DNA from: an uncultured Bacteroidales bacterium
Lineage (GTDB): Bacteria > Bacteroidota > Bacteroidia > Bacteroidales > UBA932
Length of the DNA stretch: 64,000 bases
Reading direction: 5' to 3'
NCBI GenBank assembly: GCA_900316955.1
Contig: ONEX01000015.1
Location: 16,519-80,518 of the forward strand
The position numbers were made by a program, and so were the translations under genes. Of this stretch, positions 4,598-14,704 are shown in pieces. The notes below the pieces were generated by a model. The model was not told the origin of the DNA. It searched no databases and saw only the letters and a list, made by a program, of their open reading frames with translations. Every line of letters begins with the position of its first letter. Position 1 is the first letter of the stretch.

Positions 4598-5185
4598 CTA
4601 GAACAGCCAGCGGACACCCACATTCGCGATGCCCTGCATCCCGACGCCGGCCTCCACGAAGCCGCGGAACCGCTCGCCGCCGAAGTCCACGCCGATGGGC
4701 GTCGCCTGGAAAGCGAACATGAAGTTGTCCTTGGCCTCGCCGCCATTGGTGAAGGCAAATCCCCCGCCGGCGGCCAGCTTGGAATACAGGCCCACATGCG
4801 GCCGGTTCAGCCATGCGAACTTCACCACCGGCATCACGCTCGCCACTCCCAGCTGGAACTTCCCGTTGGGCGTCTTGTTCCCGTTGCTGTCCACGGACAA
4901 GGCCGTCGCCGTCATATAGTCGCACATCGCCGCCCCGCCGAAGCCGAGCCAATTATTCACATAGTGGACATACTCCACGCCCGCCACACCGATCAGATGC
5001 GGATTCTCGAACGAAAAATGTCCGGCGGTGAACGCCGCCCCGAGCACCCCGCCCATCACATAGGCGAACTGCGGAATGGTGTACTGTCCATAGGTGATGG
5101 AAAACTCGTTCCGGTCCTTGTCATTCTTGGCAAAGACGGGCATCACAACGATAAGACACAGTAAAAGTGCAGTAAGTTTCTTCAT
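4598..5185 (-). CDS. Small outer-membrane beta-barrel protein
   Basis: A 195-residue secreted protein with a cleavable signal peptide (MKKLTALLLCLIVVMPVFA). The mature part has alternating glycine-rich and aromatic strands (VGLYSKLAAGGGFAF, FVEAGVGMQG) and ends NVGVRWLF. An aromatic last residue after alternating hydrophobics is the usual C-terminal signal of barrel proteins inserted by the BAM machinery. I do not recognise a specific family. It is the first gene of the short operon with SusC and SusD, 53 bp ahead of SusC, so it may help the same uptake system, but that is inference from position. A promoter is visible just upstream at 5219-5247. Confidence 0.8.
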   Translation of the reverse strand: MKKLTALLLCLIVVMPVFAKNDKDRNEFSITYGQYTIPQFAYVMGGVLGAAFTAGHFSFENPHLIGVAGVEYVHYVNNWLGFGGAAMCDYMTATALSVDSNGNKTPNGKFQLGVASVMPVVKFAWLNRPHVGLYSKLAAGGGFAFTNGGEAKDNFMFAFQATPIGVDFGGERFRGFVEAGVGMQGIANVGVRWLF

Positions 5186-5218
5186 GGTTGTTAGCTAGTT
5201 GGTTAAAATCCAAGCGGA

Positions 5219-5247
5219 CAAATATAATTAATATTTTGAAAAAACAA
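5219..5247 (-). promoter_or_regulatory. Bacteroidetes-type promoter of the barrel-SusC-SusD operon
   Basis: On the minus strand a TATATTTG box (bases 5219-5226) matches the TAnnTTTG -7 element, with a TTG 18 bp upstream (5245-5247) in the -33 position. The predicted leader to the ATG at 5185 is about 30 nt. Confidence 0.6.
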
Positions 5248-5347
5248 CAAGTTCCCCTACGGGGAAGCAAAAACATACAAGAAATTGTTACGAAAGTATC
5301 ATTCCCCGCGCGACATGGTACCGCCCCGCCCCAGACGTGATACTTCC

Positions 5348-5419
5348 CGTCATGCCCGACCTGTCCGCCACCGTCATGCCCGACCTGTCCGCCACCGTCA
5401 TGCCCGACCTGATCGGGCA
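5348..5419. repeat. 24-bp tandem repeat ending in a hairpin
   Basis: A 24-bp unit (starting CGTCATGCCCGACC) occurs twice in full at 5348-5371 and 5372-5395. A third copy then turns into a perfect 8-bp hairpin, ATGCCCGA / TCGGGCAT with loop CCTGA. The apparent reading frame through it (repeated QVGHDGGG on the minus strand) is low-complexity and has no start context, so I treat it as non-coding intergenic repeat DNA. Confidence 0.75.
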
Positions 5420-5443
5420 TCTGTCAATGGCTACAGAAAGAAA

Positions 5444-5474
5444 AAAGGCATCTCACATGGGCTGAGATGCCTTT
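5444..5474 (-). terminator. Intrinsic terminator, 12-bp perfect stem
   Basis: AAAGGCATCTCA (5444-5455) pairs perfectly with TGAGATGCCTTT (5463-5474) around a 7-nt loop. On the minus strand it is followed by TTTTTTCTTTCTG, so it should stop transcripts coming from the 5809-7866 gene and the foldback element, before the barrel operon promoter. Confidence 0.7.
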
Positions 5475-5599
5475 GAAGTGCAATAAAATGTCACATCGTA
5501 TGACAATGACAAAATTACGAAATAAAATGATTCCCGCAAGAATAAACCGAGAAAAAGGGAAAGATGTCGCTGTAACCCTCCACCGGGGGCCGATGCACT

Positions 5600-5773
5600 C
5601 CTGCGTCATGACGGATTTCAGCTATTCGCGTAGGCGGGAAGGCGCTTGACCGCCGAACTCGCTCAGTTAGTCCCGCAAGCGGGCCTAACTAGCGCTCAAA
5701 CAAACGGCGTCATCCCGTTCCGGGACCGCACCTTCCCGCCTGCTCACTAGCAGCTGAAATCCGAAATCCGCAG
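5600..5773. repeat. 174-bp foldback element, copy A (inverted relative to copy B)
   Basis: This copy is about 95% identical to the reverse complement of 7935-8108. It is bounded by ~22-bp imperfect terminal inverted repeats (CTGCG..ACGGATTTCAGCT and AGCTGAAATCCG..CCGCAG). Inside are nested stems: GGCGGGAAGG 5633-5642 with CCTTCCCGCC 5731-5740; TGACCGCCG 5647-5655 with CGGCGTCA 5705-5712 (one bulged base); hairpin GTTAG 5666-5670 with CTAAC 5685-5689 capped by CCCGC/GCGGG; and hairpin TCCCG 5713-5717 with CGGGA 5721-5725. It lies 35 bp past the stop of the DUF2075 gene. It could be a MITE-like element or a structured RNA. Confidence 0.85.
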
Positions 5774-5808
5774 GAGCAGACCGGCCCCGGACGAAGAGTT
5801 ACAGCTAA

Positions 5809-7866
5809 CTAAATCTCCCTCAACCCCAACTCCTTAAACAACTCATACGTTCCATCATAAAACTCTGGCAACCGGGTGGCATCGTCGGGGTTCCCTTCAG
5901 GAACGCAGATGACCATGCCTTGACGGGCGCGGGTGAGGAGGACGCGGTAGGCGTTGAGTTGGTAGGCGCGGCCTTCGGCGATGTTGATGTTTTGCCAACG
6001 GTCGGAGCGGAAGTTGAAGTGTTGCCAGCAGTGGCGGTAGGGATCGTAGCGGAAGTCGCCATCCCAAACGAGACAGGTCCAGTCGAGCTCCAGGCCTTGG
6101 ATGTCGAATTCCGTGGCGACGTCTTCCAGGAAGAGGGAAGAACGAATGTCCGTGATAGGGTTCAGGAACCAGGGAACAATATCGGCCTGGGAACGAATAT
6201 CAATAGCTAGGGGCTTCAGGCGGAAAGCTTTAGAGGAGACAAGCATTCCGTAGCGTTCTGAGCCACGCGCGTGCTCTCGGAGCCAGGCTTTGGCCTTTGC
6301 TAAGTTGCGTGTCAGGACGATGGGGTAGCGGTCTTTGATATCGTCGTAAGTCTTTCGGGCGGCAGCGATATCGAGGTCCAGGAATTGGTGGACAAACAGG
6401 GAGAGGGTTTCTGCACGATAGGATCGCTGAGATACAGCGAGGTGCAGGTCTGGACGCATGTGAACGTTGGGGTTCTCCGCGAGCAGAGCGCTGACATTTC
6501 CTTCGGCGTATTCCTTTTCCGTCAATTGGTTCGAGATGTAAATCTGCCAGTCAGGGAACTGCTGGTTAAGCGCATCGATCCACAAACCGATACCACCTTC
6601 GCCGGAGTTGATCTCCTGTCCCCCACCCACCAGGCAGACGATGGTGGCCCAGTCTTTATGCTGGTCCAGCGACCAAATGAGGAACTCACCTTCTGACATG
6701 GGGAAATCGTTCACGCCTTTCTTCCTGGCAAGCCAGGCGCTCAGATGGCGCATGTCCCACATTCGCTGCGCTTCGTCGAAAATGGCCACGTTCTCCACTT
6801 CCGCTGCGCTCTTCTCCGCAGCTTTGGAAATCTTCGCCGGATCAAGTTCTATCTGTCCATCTCGGATGGGCATCTTCAGCTTTCCGAGCATGTTATCCCG
6901 GTAGCGGTGAATGATTTGAATGAAACGGCTTACTTGGCGCTCTGCTTCTGTCTTTGTGCATCGACAGCCGCGATCCTTCTCCTTCTGAACCTTGTCTCGA
7001 GCCAAAGCTTCGGTGAGAACTTTTACAAGCGGGCCATTGCCGGAAAGATAAACCGCCAAGTCGCCTTCTTCTTGTTGAATTGCGACGTTTAAACCGACGA
7101 GTGTCTTCCCCGCGCCGGGGACTCCGGTCACAAAGCAAATGCTCTTCTGGTGGTTTTCCTTCGATTGCTTGATAATGTCCAAAATGAACGCCGTGCAGCT
7201 GTCGATTCCGGCCTTATCGGCCTCATGCTTGGTGATATCTACGACGCTGTGATTCATGTACAGCGCAGATGCCGCTTGGATGATCGTCGGGGTCGGGCTA
7301 TACCGGCTGAAGGTCCATTCGTGCGCATCCAGGGCAGGTTGCTCCGGCACTTCGTTGAGAACTCTCTGAAGGATGGACAACAGCGTTTCCGCATTACTGA
7401 ATAGCGGATAGTAGACGTGGTCATCGTAATAGCTAAAGATGGCCTGCCCCATCGAACAATCACGCTTGGGCGCCTCTGTCGCCACAAGGATTGGTACGAT
7501 AATTCGATCCCGACTCTCCTCATGGAAGTTCTTCAAATCCAGCGCATAATCCCAGACTTGCTCCTTGTCATTGACCAAGAACGCCTCCGCTCCAACCTTG
7601 AATTCAATGGCGAACACGACGCCTCTCATGAGTAGGACAACATCGACTCGTTTCCCTAGACGCGGAATGGTATACTCGAACAGAATTTGACCGTCCTCTC
7701 CCAATGCTCCCAGCGCGCTCTTCATGATATCGAACTCCTCCAACCACGCATTACGCTGATCCATGGTCAAGTCGAACTCATTCACCTGATCCATGGCCCC
7801 CAGTATAGCATCCACCGGCCGAGCAAGAAACTCGGCTACCGACTCGCTATAATAGTATCGCTGCAT
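5809..7866 (-). CDS. DUF2075 helicase with N-terminal PD-(D/E)XK-like nuclease region
   Basis: A 685-residue protein of the DUF2075 (Schlafen group 3-like) helicase family. The N-terminal ~110 residues carry D75 and E88-x-K90 (GKRVDVVLL ... AIEFKVG), the spacing of a PD-(D/E)XK nuclease core. The helicase part has Walker A GVPGAGKT at 248-255, a Walker B-like VAIFDEAQ near 335, a QEINSGEGG motif, and a C-terminal superfamily-1-like segment (LLTRARQGMVICVP). It would act on nucleic acid in the cytoplasm; a defence role is plausible for this family but unproven here. It stands alone, bracketed 35 bp and 68 bp away by inverted 174-bp foldback elements. The ATG at 7866 (MQRYYYSES) is the natural start. 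Confidence 0.85.
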   Translation of the reverse strand: MQRYYYSESVAEFLARPVDAILGAMDQVNEFDLTMDQRNAWLEEFDIMKSALGALGEDGQILFEYTIPRLGKRVDVVLLMRGVVFAIEFKVGAEAFLVNDKEQVWDYALDLKNFHEESRDRIIVPILVATEAPKRDCSMGQAIFSYYDDHVYYPLFSNAETLLSILQRVLNEVPEQPALDAHEWTFSRYSPTPTIIQAASALYMNHSVVDITKHEADKAGIDSCTAFILDIIKQSKENHQKSICFVTGVPGAGKTLVGLNVAIQQEEGDLAVYLSGNGPLVKVLTEALARDKVQKEKDRGCRCTKTEAERQVSRFIQIIHRYRDNMLGKLKMPIRDGQIELDPAKISKAAEKSAAEVENVAIFDEAQRMWDMRHLSAWLARKKGVNDFPMSEGEFLIWSLDQHKDWATIVCLVGGGQEINSGEGGIGLWIDALNQQFPDWQIYISNQLTEKEYAEGNVSALLAENPNVHMRPDLHLAVSQRSYRAETLSLFVHQFLDLDIAAARKTYDDIKDRYPIVLTRNLAKAKAWLREHARGSERYGMLVSSKAFRLKPLAIDIRSQADIVPWFLNPITDIRSSLFLEDVATEFDIQGLELDWTCLVWDGDFRYDPYRHCWQHFNFRSDRWQNINIAEGRAYQLNAYRVLLTRARQGMVICVPEGNPDDATRLPEFYDGTYELFKELGLREI

Positions 7867-7934
7867 AGGGACGTTACAGAAATAGCAAAAAAGATTGATT
7901 TCGGTAAGGTTCGCTCGTGGCGGCGGGGATGGGA

Positions 7935-8108
7935 CTGCGGAATCCGGATTTCAGCTGCTAGTGAGCAGGCGGGAAGGCCGCGGTCCCGGAACGGGATGAC
8001 GCCGTTTGTTTGAGCGCTACTTAGGCCCGCTTGCGGGACTAAGTGAGCGAGTTCGGCGTCAAGCGCCTTCCCGCCTACGCGAATAGCTGAAATCCGTCAT
8101 TCCGCAGG
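7935..8108. repeat. 174-bp foldback element, copy B
   Basis: The inverted partner of 5600-5773. In aligned orientation the two differ at about seven bases and two indels. Where copy A has GTTAG/CTAAC, copy B has CTTAG/CTAAG (8020-8024 and 8039-8043), a compensatory swap that keeps the stem. The extra C that bulges a stem in copy A is absent here, so TGACGCCG/CGGCGTCA pairs perfectly. It lies upstream of the DUF2075 gene and downstream of the DUF4143 ATPase gene, so a transcript of the latter that read on would include it. Confidence 0.85.
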
Positions 8109-8126
8109 CCCGCCCCGCCGCCCGGC

Positions 8127-8157
8127 AACCTTCCCGCCACAGTTCTCTTGCTTATGT
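8127..8157. repeat. Left copy of a ~30-bp imperfect direct repeat
   Basis: AACCTTCCCGC, then 5 bp, then TTCTCTTGC, one variable base and TATGT. The same blocks in the same order and orientation occur at 9679-9708, so the pair flanks the ATPase gene and the relic beside it. This copy ends on the stop codon of the ATPase gene. Confidence 0.6.
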
Positions 8158-9446
8158 CAGGTTGTCTTCGGGAAACGGAGAAGCCATTTCCAGACCGGTA
8201 CCACATTGATGGAGAGACCATCCTTTTCGTAAGTCTCTTCCTGGTCGAAAGTGACAATCAGTGCCTGGTCCAATTTGAACGACCTGTTGAAACTCACGAG
8301 CGCCCCCGCCTCCCGGTCACGGGTCTCTTGAGATGAGAGGTCATAGGAAACCTGGATGGCCGTTTTAATTTCGGGAATGTAGAAGTCCAAGTCCACATCG
8401 CCTCGCTTGTAATAGAATAGACGGGGTTCCTCGGGGTTCCAGTAATGCTTCCTGAGCCAAAGCGCAACAATGTTTTCCAGCAGTTTCGTCTCCCCCTTGT
8501 AAAGATAGAGGTTCAGGAGTCCGTTGTCGATGAAATAGCGTTTGCGAAGCGTCTCCTGCTCCGAGTCCGGCGAGGCATAGTTGGGGATGGAGTAAATCAA
8601 GTAGCTTTCCTCCAGGTATTCCAAATAGTCCTTCACCGTAGGGGTGCTGATCTTCTCACCGGAGGACTTTATAACATGTTCGAAACGTGAGATGGAGGTT
8701 GGCTGCATCACGTTGTCCGCCACTTTCCGGACCAGGAGCCGGAGCTGGCGGTCGTTCCGAATCTTGTGCCGGGTAAGGATGTCACCCATCAGGATCCGCT
8801 GCAACAGGCTGGTAAGCCATTCGCGCTTTCCGACGATGGGGAATGATTCGGCGAAGCCGCCGTTGTAGAAATAGTCGTCGAAGCGTCTCCTCACCTCCAG
8901 TCTGGTATCTGGCTCGTATTCCCAGTTCGGCCCGGGAAGGACTCCATGGTAGGACAAGTATTCCCGCCAGGAAAAAGGGAAAACTTCGCGGATGACGAAA
9001 CTCCCTCCCAGTGTGGAAGCGATTTCCTTGCTGAGCATCCTGGCATTGCTGCCGGTAACCATCACCCGGAATCCGGTCTCCGCCAGCCGGCGGACGAACT
9101 TCTCCCAGCCGTCCACATTCTGGATTTCATCGAGGTATACCTGTGGTTTCCCCGGACCGAACATCTCCTGATAACAGTCAATGGTCAGTCCGAGTTCCTT
9201 GGACTTGATATCAGAGATGCGCTCATCTTCGAAGTTGACGTAGAGGCAGTCCTGGAACGTCGCCTTGGCAGCGGATACCCGTTCTTGGATATCCTGGAAC
9301 AGCAACCAGGATTTTCCAGCCCGCCGGACACCCACGTTTACGTAGCACATGGCATCCTCGTATGATACCGGACGTTTCACAAGTTTCACTAGAGAGATTT
9401 CCAGCTGCTTCTCTCCAATGATGGTTTTGATGATTCCCTTATCCAT
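8157..9446 (-). CDS. AAA ATPase with DUF4143 domain
   Basis: A 429-residue cytoplasmic ATPase of the widespread AAA_14/DUF4143 type. Walker A is GVRRAGKS at residues 39-46 and Walker B is VYLDEIQNV near 104. A sensor-like VMVTGSNARML follows, with the DUF4143 nuclease-like C-terminal region (DVDLDFYIP, then IQVSYDL) at about 200-400. Family members are common in Bacteroidales accessory regions and their substrates are mostly unknown. The gene has its own promoter (9468-9502) and no operon partner. It sits between ~30-bp direct repeats, which hints at acquisition or excision as a unit. Confidence 0.9.
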   Translation of the reverse strand: MDKGIIKTIIGEKQLEISLVKLVKRPVSYEDAMCYVNVGVRRAGKSWLLFQDIQERVSAAKATFQDCLYVNFEDERISDIKSKELGLTIDCYQEMFGPGKPQVYLDEIQNVDGWEKFVRRLAETGFRVMVTGSNARMLSKEIASTLGGSFVIREVFPFSWREYLSYHGVLPGPNWEYEPDTRLEVRRRFDDYFYNGGFAESFPIVGKREWLTSLLQRILMGDILTRHKIRNDRQLRLLVRKVADNVMQPTSISRFEHVIKSSGEKISTPTVKDYLEYLEESYLIYSIPNYASPDSEQETLRKRYFIDNGLLNLYLYKGETKLLENIVALWLRKHYWNPEEPRLFYYKRGDVDLDFYIPEIKTAIQVSYDLSSQETRDREAGALVSFNRSFKLDQALIVTFDQEETYEKDGLSINVVPVWKWLLRFPKTT

Positions 9447-9781: not shown

Positions 9782-10093
9782 ATGGAATATCGACTGGATA
9801 ATTACTCCCGAAATCCACAATTACTGATGGATCGGATGGCCCATAATTGTCGGGCAAGACGGCTTGAGAAGGGGTATAGCAGGAAGACGCTTTCCGGTCT
9901 TACCGGCATTCCGGCCCCGACGATAGAAAGGTTCGAGAGGACGGGGAAAATATCCCTGGAATCTTTCTGCAGGCTTGTCATCGAGTTTGATTACTTTGAC
10001 GAAATGGTGACTCTGCTCAACCGCACCAAGTACTCGACCTCCCGGGAACTCGAGACGATCAACAAGAACCTGAATAGAAAGAACGGCCGGTAA
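9782..10093 (+). CDS. XRE-family HTH regulator, HipB-like
   Basis: A 103-residue protein with a Cro/CI-type helix-turn-helix at about residues 18-75 (RARRLEKGYSRKTLSGLTG, IPAPTIERFERTG). It closely resembles HipB-like proteins that usually sit next to a HipA kinase toxin. No hipA follows here, so it is either an orphan antitoxin-like regulator or controls nearby genes. It is likely a dimeric DNA-binding autorepressor, though no clear operator was identified. The gene is preceded by AT-rich DNA and separated from the DUF2200 gene by 77 bp. Confidence 0.85.
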   Translation: MEYRLDNYSRNPQLLMDRMAHNCRARRLEKGYSRKTLSGLTGIPAPTIERFERTGKISLESFCRLVIEFDYFDEMVTLLNRTKYSTSRELETINKNLNRKNGR

Positions 10094-10155
10094 TCGACAT
10101 CAATCTCCTTCCTGACACATCGTCTCATTCTACGTGATTATTCGCTATCTTTCAC

Positions 10156-10163
10156 TATCTTTG
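10156..10163 (+). promoter_or_regulatory. -7 box of the DUF2200 gene, nearly leaderless
   Basis: TATCTTTG fits TAnnTTTG and ends only 7 bp before the ATG at 10171, so transcription would begin within a few bases of the start codon. A second partial box (TATCTTTC) lies 11 bp upstream. Confidence 0.5.
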
Positions 10164-10170
10164 ACCCACT

Positions 10171-10518
10171 ATGGACGTATTCGAAATGAAATTCTCCAAG
10201 GTGTTTCCTTTGCTCATCGCCAAGGCGGTGCGGAAGGGACGGACGGAGGAGGAGGTGTTTGCCGTGACAGAGTGGCTTACGGGCTATTCTGAGGAGGAAT
10301 TGCGGGCGATGTTGGGGAGCGATTCGGCCACGTATGGGGAGTTCCTGGAGAAGGCGCCGTGCATGAATCCGGAGCGGTTCCTGGTGAAGGGGAAGATTTG
10401 CGGTGTGCGGGTCGAGGAGATTGAAGAGCCTCGCATGCGAGATTTGCGGATCCTTGACAAGCTCGTTGACGACCTCGCCAAAGGAAAGGCCATCGACAAG
10501 ATTTTAATGAAAAGTTAG
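10171..10518 (+). CDS. DUF2200 family protein
   Basis: A 115-residue cytoplasmic protein that matches the DUF2200 pattern over its length: FSKVFPLLIAKAVRKGRT, EWLTGYSEEEL, and the C-terminal MRDLRILDKLVDDLAKGK. Members are small, widely scattered proteins of unknown function. The start at 10171 places the family core from about residue 6. The next gene (HIRAN) begins 9 bp after the stop, so the two are probably cotranscribed. Nothing in the sequence indicates an enzymatic activity. Confidence 0.85.
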   Translation: MDVFEMKFSKVFPLLIAKAVRKGRTEEEVFAVTEWLTGYSEEELRAMLGSDSATYGEFLEKAPCMNPERFLVKGKICGVRVEEIEEPRMRDLRILDKLVDDLAKGKAIDKILMKS

Positions 10519-13570: not shown

Positions 13571-13625
13571 ATATTTCGACAGATTAGATGGTAGCCTTCT
13601 CTCAAGCACAAATTTATAAAAAAAT

Positions 13626-14048
13626 TCATACTTTCCCCACCAACTCCTCCAGACTTCCCGCGACGCCGTCGAAGAGCTTGTACATGAGCTCGGGTTCGAC
13701 CATTTCGGGGATGTAGGCGACGACGCGCTTGCCGGCGCCGGCCATCCAGCCGGCTTCGGTGTGCGCGCTACGGCCGCAGGGAAGGACGAGGACGCAGGTA
13801 TCGGCCCAGGTGAGGGCGTCGATGTCGGCCTGGAACTGGCGCTCGGCGAGGGGGTGGTGGAGGCCTTCGGCGTACTGGTCGAAGGTCCATTCGGGGGCCT
13901 TCGGGTCGATGTCAGTCCAATGGAAGCCGGCGCCGCCGTGGGGCGGGTTGCGGAAGTCGTAGACTTCGTGCCCCGCCTCCCGCAGGCGTTGTACCACTTC
14001 GGGGTAGTATTGGTTCCTCCAGCTGGAGGCGACGTAGATCCTGGCCAT
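13626..14048 (-). CDS. Nucleoside 2-deoxyribosyltransferase-like protein
   Basis: A 140-residue cytoplasmic protein starting MARIYVASSWRN. The fold family is recognisable from the N-terminal IYVASSWRN strand-loop, the WTDIDP segment, and the ADTCVLVLPCGRSAHTEAGW motif, where the glutamate is the usual nucleophile of the family. Members cleave or transfer 2-deoxyribose on nucleosides, and many short relatives are of uncertain substrate. It has its own promoter box at 14083-14090 and is divergent from the secreted protein gene at 14156. Confidence 0.85.
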   Translation of the reverse strand: MARIYVASSWRNQYYPEVVQRLREAGHEVYDFRNPPHGGAGFHWTDIDPKAPEWTFDQYAEGLHHPLAERQFQADIDALTWADTCVLVLPCGRSAHTEAGWMAGAGKRVVAYIPEMVEPELMYKLFDGVAGSLEELVGKV

Positions 14049-14082
14049 AGCGCGATTCGTTTGCTTGTTTCCTTGATTGTTT

Positions 14083-14090
14083 CAAAGATA
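14083..14090 (-). promoter_or_regulatory. -7 box of the deoxyribosyltransferase-like gene
   Basis: Minus-strand TATCTTTG, with a leader of about 30 nt. It faces a plus-strand box 24 bp away, so the 108-bp divergent spacer carries two promoters. Confidence 0.55.
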
Positions 14091-14114
14091 CGCATTCTTT
14101 CCGGCAATATTCAC

Positions 14115-14122
14115 TATATTTG
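14115..14122 (+). promoter_or_regulatory. -7 box of the 14156-17927 operon
   Basis: TATATTTG matches TAnnTTTG 33 bp before the ATG at 14156. No convincing -33 TTTG was found. Confidence 0.5.
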
Positions 14123-14155
14123 TTTGTCAAGGAAACAGAAAATCAACTTAAGCAT

Positions 14156-14704
14156 ATGAAAAGAATCATCGCCATCACCGCTCTCGCGTGCGTCCTGACG
14201 TCCGCGTGGGCCCAGGATTACCCGGCCGGCCTGCGGCGGGAAGTCGTCGAGATCGAACAGAACGAGGATAAATATTCCCTGTTCTCCTACAAGGACGAGG
14301 ACGGGACCTTCGGGTACTACTTGAGCCTCCGCCACGAGACCCCGGACCTGGAGATCGAAATCTTCGGCATCCAGGGGTCCATCCCCCACGTCGACGAAAC
14401 CTGCCTGTGCCTGGGCGCGACGAAGGACGAGGTCCTCTCCACCCTCGATTCGCTCCTGGCGCTGACCGACGAAGAGCCCGGGACGACGGCCACCTTCCCC
14501 TGCCGGCGGACTTCCCTGACCGAGCGCCTGACCGTTCCCGACACGGCAGAATGCGTCGTGGTCAAGCCCTTCCTGATGAGCAAGCGCCTCCGCTTCCAGT
14601 TCGACCACGACGGCAAAACCGCCGAGGTCGACCTCTCCCGCTCCACCATCAAATCCCTCCGCTGGAGCGTCGACCTGGACAAGAAACTCGGTCTTAACGA
14701 ATAA
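14156..14704 (+). CDS. Secreted protein of unknown function
   Basis: A 182-residue protein with a clean signal peptide (MKRIIAITALACVLTSAWA, then Q). The mature part is acidic and beta-rich, with a central cysteine pair (ETCLCLG) and a phrase, TKDEVLSTLDSLLAL, typical of small secreted Bacteroidales proteins. I do not recognise a family. It is followed 5 bp later by the propeller-isomerase gene, so it is the first gene of a three-gene operon. Starting at 14156 rather than at the earlier in-frame ATG at 14120 puts the signal peptide at the N-terminus and the start after the promoter box. Confidence 0.75.
   Translation: MKRIIAITALACVLTSAWAQDYPAGLRREVVEIEQNEDKYSLFSYKDEDGTFGYYLSLRHETPDLEIEIFGIQGSIPHVDETCLCLGATKDEVLSTLDSLLALTDEEPGTTATFPCRRTSLTERLTVPDTAECVVVKPFLMSKRLRFQFDHDGKTAEVDLSRSTIKSLRWSVDLDKKLGLNE

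Follow-up and report, generated by a model that had tools for sequence, protein, structure and literature searches.

Matched inverted hairpins around a Schlafen-group-3 gene in an uncultured Bacteroidales bacterium: a candidate defence cassette without a transposase

Described layouts and the hairpin pair of the window

Composite transposons and pairs of miniature inverted-repeat transposable elements (MITEs) have matched, inverted ends around passenger genes, together with empty sites and solitary copies of the ends. In the parts of PMC6006769 and PMC3116915 consulted, repetitive extragenic palindromic (REP) repeats that go with TnpA_REP/RAYT are reported in inverted pairs, as hairpins with compensatory changes, and Bacteroidetes TnpA_Y1 genes of subclass 2.6 are reported with atypical surrounding hairpins that have copies elsewhere. 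TIRYT elements, as presented in the portion of PMC3733652 used here, hold a tyrosine transposase gene between long, sometimes double palindromic terminal inverted repeats (TIRs), some families of which recur in the genome, and the portion of PMC8649781 used here reports Tn7-like transposons that carry defence cargo. Here, we describe a pair of inverted hairpins, members of a repeat family named R1, around a gene of Schlafen group 3 (SLFN-g3) from an uncultured gut/rumen Bacteroidales bacterium. They lie in a window of 64,000 nucleotides, the whole stretch analysed (assembly GCA_900316955.1, contig ONEX01000015.1, positions 16,519 to 80,518). The host genome has 3.1 Mb in 38 contigs and is 98% complete, with the window on contig 30. 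We suggest, with a probability of about 0.55, that this is a cassette bounded by hairpins and lacking a transposase, which carries defence-type cargo and is gained, lost and re-filled as a block at chromosomal sites. Our best reading of the R1 cassette is non-autonomous and REPtron-like in layout, without a RAYT.

The sequence-only reading had described two 174-bp inverted copies, about 95% identical, with one gene between them, and the comparison bore this out: 5600-5773 (plus strand) and 7935-8108 (minus strand) are 94.9% identical over 175 alignment columns, and a single gene (5809-7866, minus strand, 685 aa) lies between them. This repeat, reported as three pieces, is the sole inverted pair of at least 40 nt reported in the window. 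The same reading gave each copy ~22-bp terminal inverted repeats; inverted repeats are indeed present, but as part of a much longer palindrome. The 174-bp copies are the middle parts of hairpins of ~263 bp on the left (W1) and ~234 bp on the right (W2), with base pairing reaching outward to ~5557-5819 and ~7903-8136. W1 with its outer stem (5557..5819, plus strand) is a 263-nt fold of -132 kcal/mol; W2 (7903..8136, minus strand), inverted and ~36 bp upstream of the start codon, is a 234-nt fold of -149 kcal/mol. Because its pairing extends outwards, the right arm of W1 overlaps the last codons of the helicase gene. Folded as single-stranded DNA and compared with dinucleotide shuffles, the copies gave z values of -6.55 and -9.68, and 0 of 200 shuffles was as good for either copy. 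Rfam gave no match at E≤1 across 5000-8800.

Fifteen R1 copies from three genomes were aligned, and they share a branched hairpin of 42 pairs, in which 94.9% of the pair cells are standard. That percentage is biased in favour of the fold, which comes from this very alignment, and changes on both sides of a pair are the better evidence. Thirteen pairs changed on both sides, versus 4.7 in shuffles (0 of 500 shuffles reached 13), and sliding the structure along the alignment left little signal. The conserved core spans 142 positions. Under the R1 covariance model it scores 163.5 bits in W1 (5616..5759, plus strand) and 164.7 bits in W2 (7949..8092, minus strand), both copies being among the 15 used for the model, and it is strand-asymmetric (31.5 bits on the opposite strand of W1). 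The outer ends of the 15 copies are often GGGAAGGT / ACCTTCCC, and terminal inverted repeats are visible by eye in many of them. A conserved tetranucleotide foot (GTAG or similar) was looked for by eye in their flanks, and no constant foot was seen.

The 685-aa protein carries the Schlafen-group-3 helicase domain (Pfam PF09848, E=7.7e-70), of which we take DUF2075 to be the older name, and it matches the PADLOC candidate defence family PDC-S41 over residues 1-685 (E=4.8e-263). PADLOC models the gene alone, with the hairpin brackets outside. The helicase with a nuclease-like N-terminus proposed from the sequence agrees with the domain match and with the residues D75, E88 and K90, invariant in 21 of 21 aligned sequences, as is G248-T255. 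The pattern D75 ... E88-x-K90 is likely that of a PD-(D/E)XK nuclease. Structure prediction gave a poor model (mean predicted local distance difference test, pLDDT, 65), and with it Foldseek returned no PDB match at E≤0.001; its weak list is topped by GajB and includes Holliday-junction resolvases and EndoMS, which we take to be PD-(D/E)XK folds. The sole match of a PDB sequence search was at E 0.095. With invariant residues on one side and a poor model and no significant PDB match on the other, the nuclease is likely, not proven. The 21 relatives of the gene all come from uncultured Bacteroidales/Bacteroidia assemblies, several labelled ruminant-derived. The gene is probably an anti-phage gene.

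Convergent pairs in the genus and their cargo

The host genome gave 11 R1 matches, which come to about nine copies: among them are two opposite-strand matches to W1, two half-copies at the ends of contigs and one partial copy. With the covariance model, 79 of 400 genomes of the genus matched at E≤0.001, many of them weakly, with no more than 8 candidates scored per genome. An order-wide draw of 295 genomes gave 2 matching genomes, the host's own being one. Thus, R1 looks nearly confined to the genus of the host.

A search with the model (cmsearch) over 59 fetched stretches returned 91 matches. Opposite-strand echoes and one 19.3-bit match (at L129; L and G numbers stand for fetched loci or stretches and for the genomes compared), which would give a divergent pair, were set aside from the pair count. 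The close pairs were then 11 convergent, 2 direct (G359 C1, 0.7 kb; G093 C1, 9 kb) and 0 divergent. Three of the convergent pairs (window, G003 C24 and G418) are one orthologous locus, which leaves nine convergent loci. The G364 pair is just 0.25 kb apart, and the other ten enclose more than 1 kb, at eight loci.

Nuclease or helicase genes are held by six of these eight cassette loci, and two have none. By locus, the cargo is SLFN-g3 (3), a superfamily 1 (SF1) helicase with DUF2726 (1), a PDDEXK_4 nuclease (1), helix-turn-helix (HTH) plus HNH (1) and Big_2 (2). The window pair holds its SLFN-g3 gene; at the same locus G003 C24 has the window gene (97%) with an SF1-DUF2726 helicase, and G418 the window gene (97%) with a UvrD helicase. 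Another SLFN-g3 gene lies in G003 C67, and a GIY-YIG-SLFN-g3 gene with a MazG-like gene in G017 C78. The remaining pairs enclose an SF1-DUF2726 helicase alone (G297), a PDDEXK_4 nuclease of PDC-S26 (G396), HTH and HNH (G393), and Big_2 proteins (G017 C45 and G241). These Ig-like Big_2 proteins are non-defence cargo and occur in R1 pairs of two species (L037 1129-4407, L109 980-2943). The genes to the left of the pair are common to G003 C67 and G017 C78, which match at 77% over a 651-bp stretch that enters the left hairpin and at 86% over 418 bp farther from it. The two pairs may thus mark a single site filled with different SLFN-g3 genes, in which case the eight loci would be seven sites.

In most pairs open to the comparison, the two hairpins are each other's closest copy in the genome. 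Eight pairs lie in genomes with at least two other sampled elements, and in five of them (window, G003 C67, G017 C78, G017 C45 and G297) the partner is the nearest copy of the same genome; three further pairs offer no choice. Measured against all 62 other copies, including those of other genomes, partners are nearest both ways in 4 of 11 pairs. In 18 genomes picked for carrying R1 there are 15 SLFN-g3 genes, six within 500 bp and seven within 700 bp of an R1 core.

SLFN-g3 genes are present in 63 of 300 genomes of the genus, and we scanned 75 SLFN-g3 loci de novo for hairpins (0.89 Mb; 73 from the 300-genome search plus G418 and G389, known cassettes included). A pair was counted when it was inverted, with both arms folding strongly and more than 300 bp apart. 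Nine such palindromic pairs were found, and all nine enclose the SLFN gene, with none elsewhere; one further match lies inside a single hairpin. The nine represent seven loci (window/G003/G418, G003 C67, G017 C78, G061, G011, G225 and G101), and, were the gene placed at random within its locus, each pair would enclose it with a chance of 0.06-0.45. Control sequence of 0.447 Mb (20 regions chosen arbitrarily and three parts of the window) gave one pair, with 69% identity over 371 bp (L342); we rejected it as an element, as it sits in two reading frames of opposite strand and not in hairpin repeats.

The hairpins of these pairs belong to more than one family. The G101 hairpin is distantly related to R1, with a best E of 7e-24 against an R1 copy (8e-4 for the best of 30 shuffles), and the R1 covariance model did not report it at E 0.01. 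The G225 hairpin is of a different, common family that is matched by 124 of 200 genomes of the genus, and the G011 hairpin has weak similarity to it (E 2e-5). The G061 pair consists, by eye, of CGTC-type palindromes and is the weakest case of the nine. Partners that recur inside SLFN-g3 cassettes are a MazG-like gene (G017, G061 and G225) and a UvrD helicase (G418 and G101). The R1 model gave 1 weak match on 56 further SLFN-g3 loci, so R1 itself seldom accompanies SLFN-g3 genes beyond the genomes named above. For the common family, the inverted pair at L248 (2886-3013 / 7864-7990; 94% identical) lies around DUF2075, MazG-like and GIY-YIG-SLFN-g3 genes.

Site comparisons and the search for a mobilising enzyme

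Sites without the insertion had been raised as a check from the sequence alone, and one empty site came to light, for a Big_2 cassette. The G017 C45 cassette spans 4.8 kb if the two hairpins and the unaligned flank (60-70 bp per side) are counted, and its flanks align cleanly to G000, another species, ~10 bp apart. At a second site, between genes we take to be LysR and nifJ, G297 has a pair with a helicase and G093 one hairpin, and the flanks align on both sides. A candidate empty site for the L242 cassette, in G062, was set aside, as a larger stretch is missing there.

At the window hot spot, G003 and G418 have the left flank (89-95% identity) and the pair in common with the window, and the second gene is different. 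In G150 an SF1 helicase is accompanied there by a single R1 copy and a 33-bp remnant (85%). Among the 21 relatives, only those of G003 and G418 have flanks that match the window on either side; L178, L182 and L190 have, near their own relative of the gene, just one gene in common with the window (13.6-14.0 kb there), and L173 has a 229-bp match. At another chromosomal site, G088 (L090 7945-8382) carries a 444-bp unit (89%) that corresponds to W1 and ~190 bp of the flank outside it; the hairpin part is 97% identical to W1 over 250 bp, and the inner side has different genes, an AAA_15 ATPase among them. From these comparisons we infer mobilisation of the cassettes.

The idea of a composite-like defence unit bracketed by structured repeats stands in part, in that the pair is conserved at the locus in G003 and G418 and other nuclease or helicase cassettes have the same pair type. 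The window unit as one member of a recurring pattern is thus partly supported. Bracketing is not a fixed property of DUF2075 genes: both R1 copies accompany 2 of the 21 relatives (G003 and G418), several contigs being short, one other relative has one close R1 copy, one a weak copy ~0.9 kb off, and one a pair of another hairpin family. The sequence-only reading had named two findings as contrary to it, wide occurrence of the elements as solitary intergenic repeats and a bracket that is not conserved in related strains. The former was found, since solitary intergenic copies are common; yet the gene is bracketed in both other species that have it at the locus.

Several observations were made around the window pair and other R1 copies. 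Just outside W1, at 5347-5418, there are three 24-bp tandem copies with a CGTC-tagged palindrome, CGTCATGCCCGAC..., which is also present at other fetched loci of the genus. Directly outside W2, at 8157-9446, lies an AAA_14/DUF4143 ATPase (PADLOC PDC-S01), not seen at the equivalent locus of G003. The window at 9782-10518 and L033 at 13615-14404, the hot spots of the host genome and of G003, have a 103-aa gene (HTH-like by eye) and a 115-aa gene in swapped order. A third hairpin type with arms CCAACCCGAAATT... adjoins R1 copies in L101 (right of 10486) and L105 (right of 7621).

With regard to a mobilising enzyme, PF01797 (RAYT-like) genes occur in 9 of 10 genomes of the genus searched. At 9 of 12 fetched RAYT loci (L141-L146, L148, L150 and L151) the gene is flanked by its own inverted repeats, with arms of ~25-113 bp, many of them hairpins. 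A RAYT as direct partner of R1 was not found, nor was an autonomous element related to R1 among the 12 RAYT loci and the fetched R1 stretches. No transposase domain was seen among the cargo proteins scanned, small cargo open reading frames not all being included. It is possible that a RAYT acting in trans moves the R1 cassettes. Equally plausible is homologous recombination between hairpins at different places, which would fit the G088 unit.

Likeness to described systems, rival explanations and significance

R1 resembles REPtrons and REPINs as a multi-copy extragenic palindrome that forms a hairpin, with inverted pairs around a gene and solitary dispersed copies. It differs in that the bracketed gene is a nuclease-helicase or other cargo and not a RAYT, that the units have ~230-260 bp and a branched core, and that the 12 RAYT loci carry no R1. 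As no cognate RAYT was found, we do not claim REPtron membership. Like TIRYT elements, R1 cassettes have a gene between long inverted repeats, but no tyrosine transposase was found enclosed by R1 pairs. They share inverted matched ends, an empty site and solitary end copies with composite transposons or MITE pairs; unlike in these, no transposase was found in the non-coding ends or in the cargo, and no target-site duplication was seen. As a mobile vehicle for defence genes they would be similar to Tn7-like transposons, whereas no Tn7-type domain appeared among the cargo proteins scanned, with no search aimed at Tn7 made. An integron cassette (attC) was rejected, as 11 of 13 close pairs are inverted and no integrase is among the scanned proteins; a partial GTTAG/CTAAC match is, by eye, not kept in the second R1 subfamily. 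Hairpin-bracketed defence cassettes were not found described in titles and abstract openings of open-licence PubMed Central, a scope that excludes subscription papers and preprints.

In the mechanism that we propose, two matched, inward-pointing, REPIN- or MITE-like R1 hairpins would form the ends, and the cargo would be a SLFN-g3 nuclease-helicase, probably anti-phage. Within the genus, whole cassettes would come and go at chromosomal sites and be filled anew. Movement or exchange of the block may depend on something that acts on the hairpins in trans, be it an HUH/RAYT-like single-strand enzyme or recombination between dispersed homologous copies. The cargo may act against phage.

Several findings weigh against this proposal. 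Most sampled R1 copies are solitary, in intergenic gaps; some adjoin ordinary genes, and several recur at orthologous positions in two to four species. Many solitary copies are found where a contig stops, so that a partner may have been cut off. Comparison of the G017 cassette with the empty G000 site showed no evident target-site duplication, and the partner is not the nearest copy in 3 of 8 pairs (G003 C24, which is the orthologous pair, G396 and G364). Sixty-six of the 75 SLFN-g3 loci have no such pair, many contigs being short. The MazG-like gene is also found next to SLFN-g3 genes that have no hairpin pair, so that gene partnership needs no cassette. On the side of the enzyme, R1 was not found at the 12 RAYT loci (E≤0.01; best E 0.033), the fetched R1 stretches gave no RAYT homologue (tblastn with 10 RAYTs, E≤1e-5), and G297, an 87% complete genome with at least 8 R1 copies, has no PF01797/Y1_Tnp match.

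The pairs could instead reflect coincidence and hitch-hiking, a real possibility although an unlikely one, and most sampled copies are indeed solitary. R1 would then be an ordinary REPIN-like repeat of intergenic gaps, defence hot spots would collect repeats, and the pairs would be two separate insertions. Hot spots are indeed mosaic, and single copies come and go: the R1 copy adjacent to a gene that is presumably mraZ is present in G359 and G297 and was not found at 17 other mraZ loci scanned, one R1-free locus being 97% identical in the query region. From two filled and a few unfilled mraZ loci compared by eye, we do not claim the outer stems of R1 as inverted target copies, as other hairpins confound the comparison. 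What separate insertions would leave to chance is the convergent orientation of 11 of 13 close pairs (9 of 11 by locus vs 1 in 4 by chance), the nearest partners in 5 of 8 pairs and the enclosure of the SLFN gene by 9 of 9 palindromic pairs.

We consider it quite unlikely that the hairpins are bidirectional terminators or insulators, kept around costly defence genes while homogenisation keeps the copies alike. Very stable stem-loops do flank the cargo on both sides, with W2 just upstream of the gene start, but a core of 142 positions would be far larger than a terminator needs, it is strand-asymmetric, many copies are solitary, and the empty site is left unexplained. It is very improbable that the enclosed nuclease-helicases act on the hairpins as their substrate, with the SLFN-g3 protein cutting or unwinding its own ends as part of a rolling-hairpin-like element. 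SLFN-g3 genes do recur inside palindromic pairs of different hairpin families; against it, 2 of 8 R1 cassette loci carry only Big_2 proteins, three others hold unrelated nucleases or helicases, and the 66 SLFN-g3 loci without a hairpin pair count here too. A wider claim, which we regard as rather unlikely, would make these elements distinct Bacteroidales mobile defence cassettes with large branched hairpin ends, no internal transposase and interchangeable nuclease-helicases, moved in trans; in its boldest form, the SLFN-g3 protein would process the ends.

A hairpin-bounded cassette with defence-type cargo, our preferred reading, would extend the REPtron layout, reported around RAYT genes in the parts of PMC6006769 and PMC3116915 consulted, to cargo of another kind. 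It addresses the wider question of how single defence genes move between chromosomal sites without a visible transposase, integrase or phage. The matched inverted hairpin boundary would provide a search handle that is independent of the cargo, would predict new defence genes and would make the mobilising enzyme testable.

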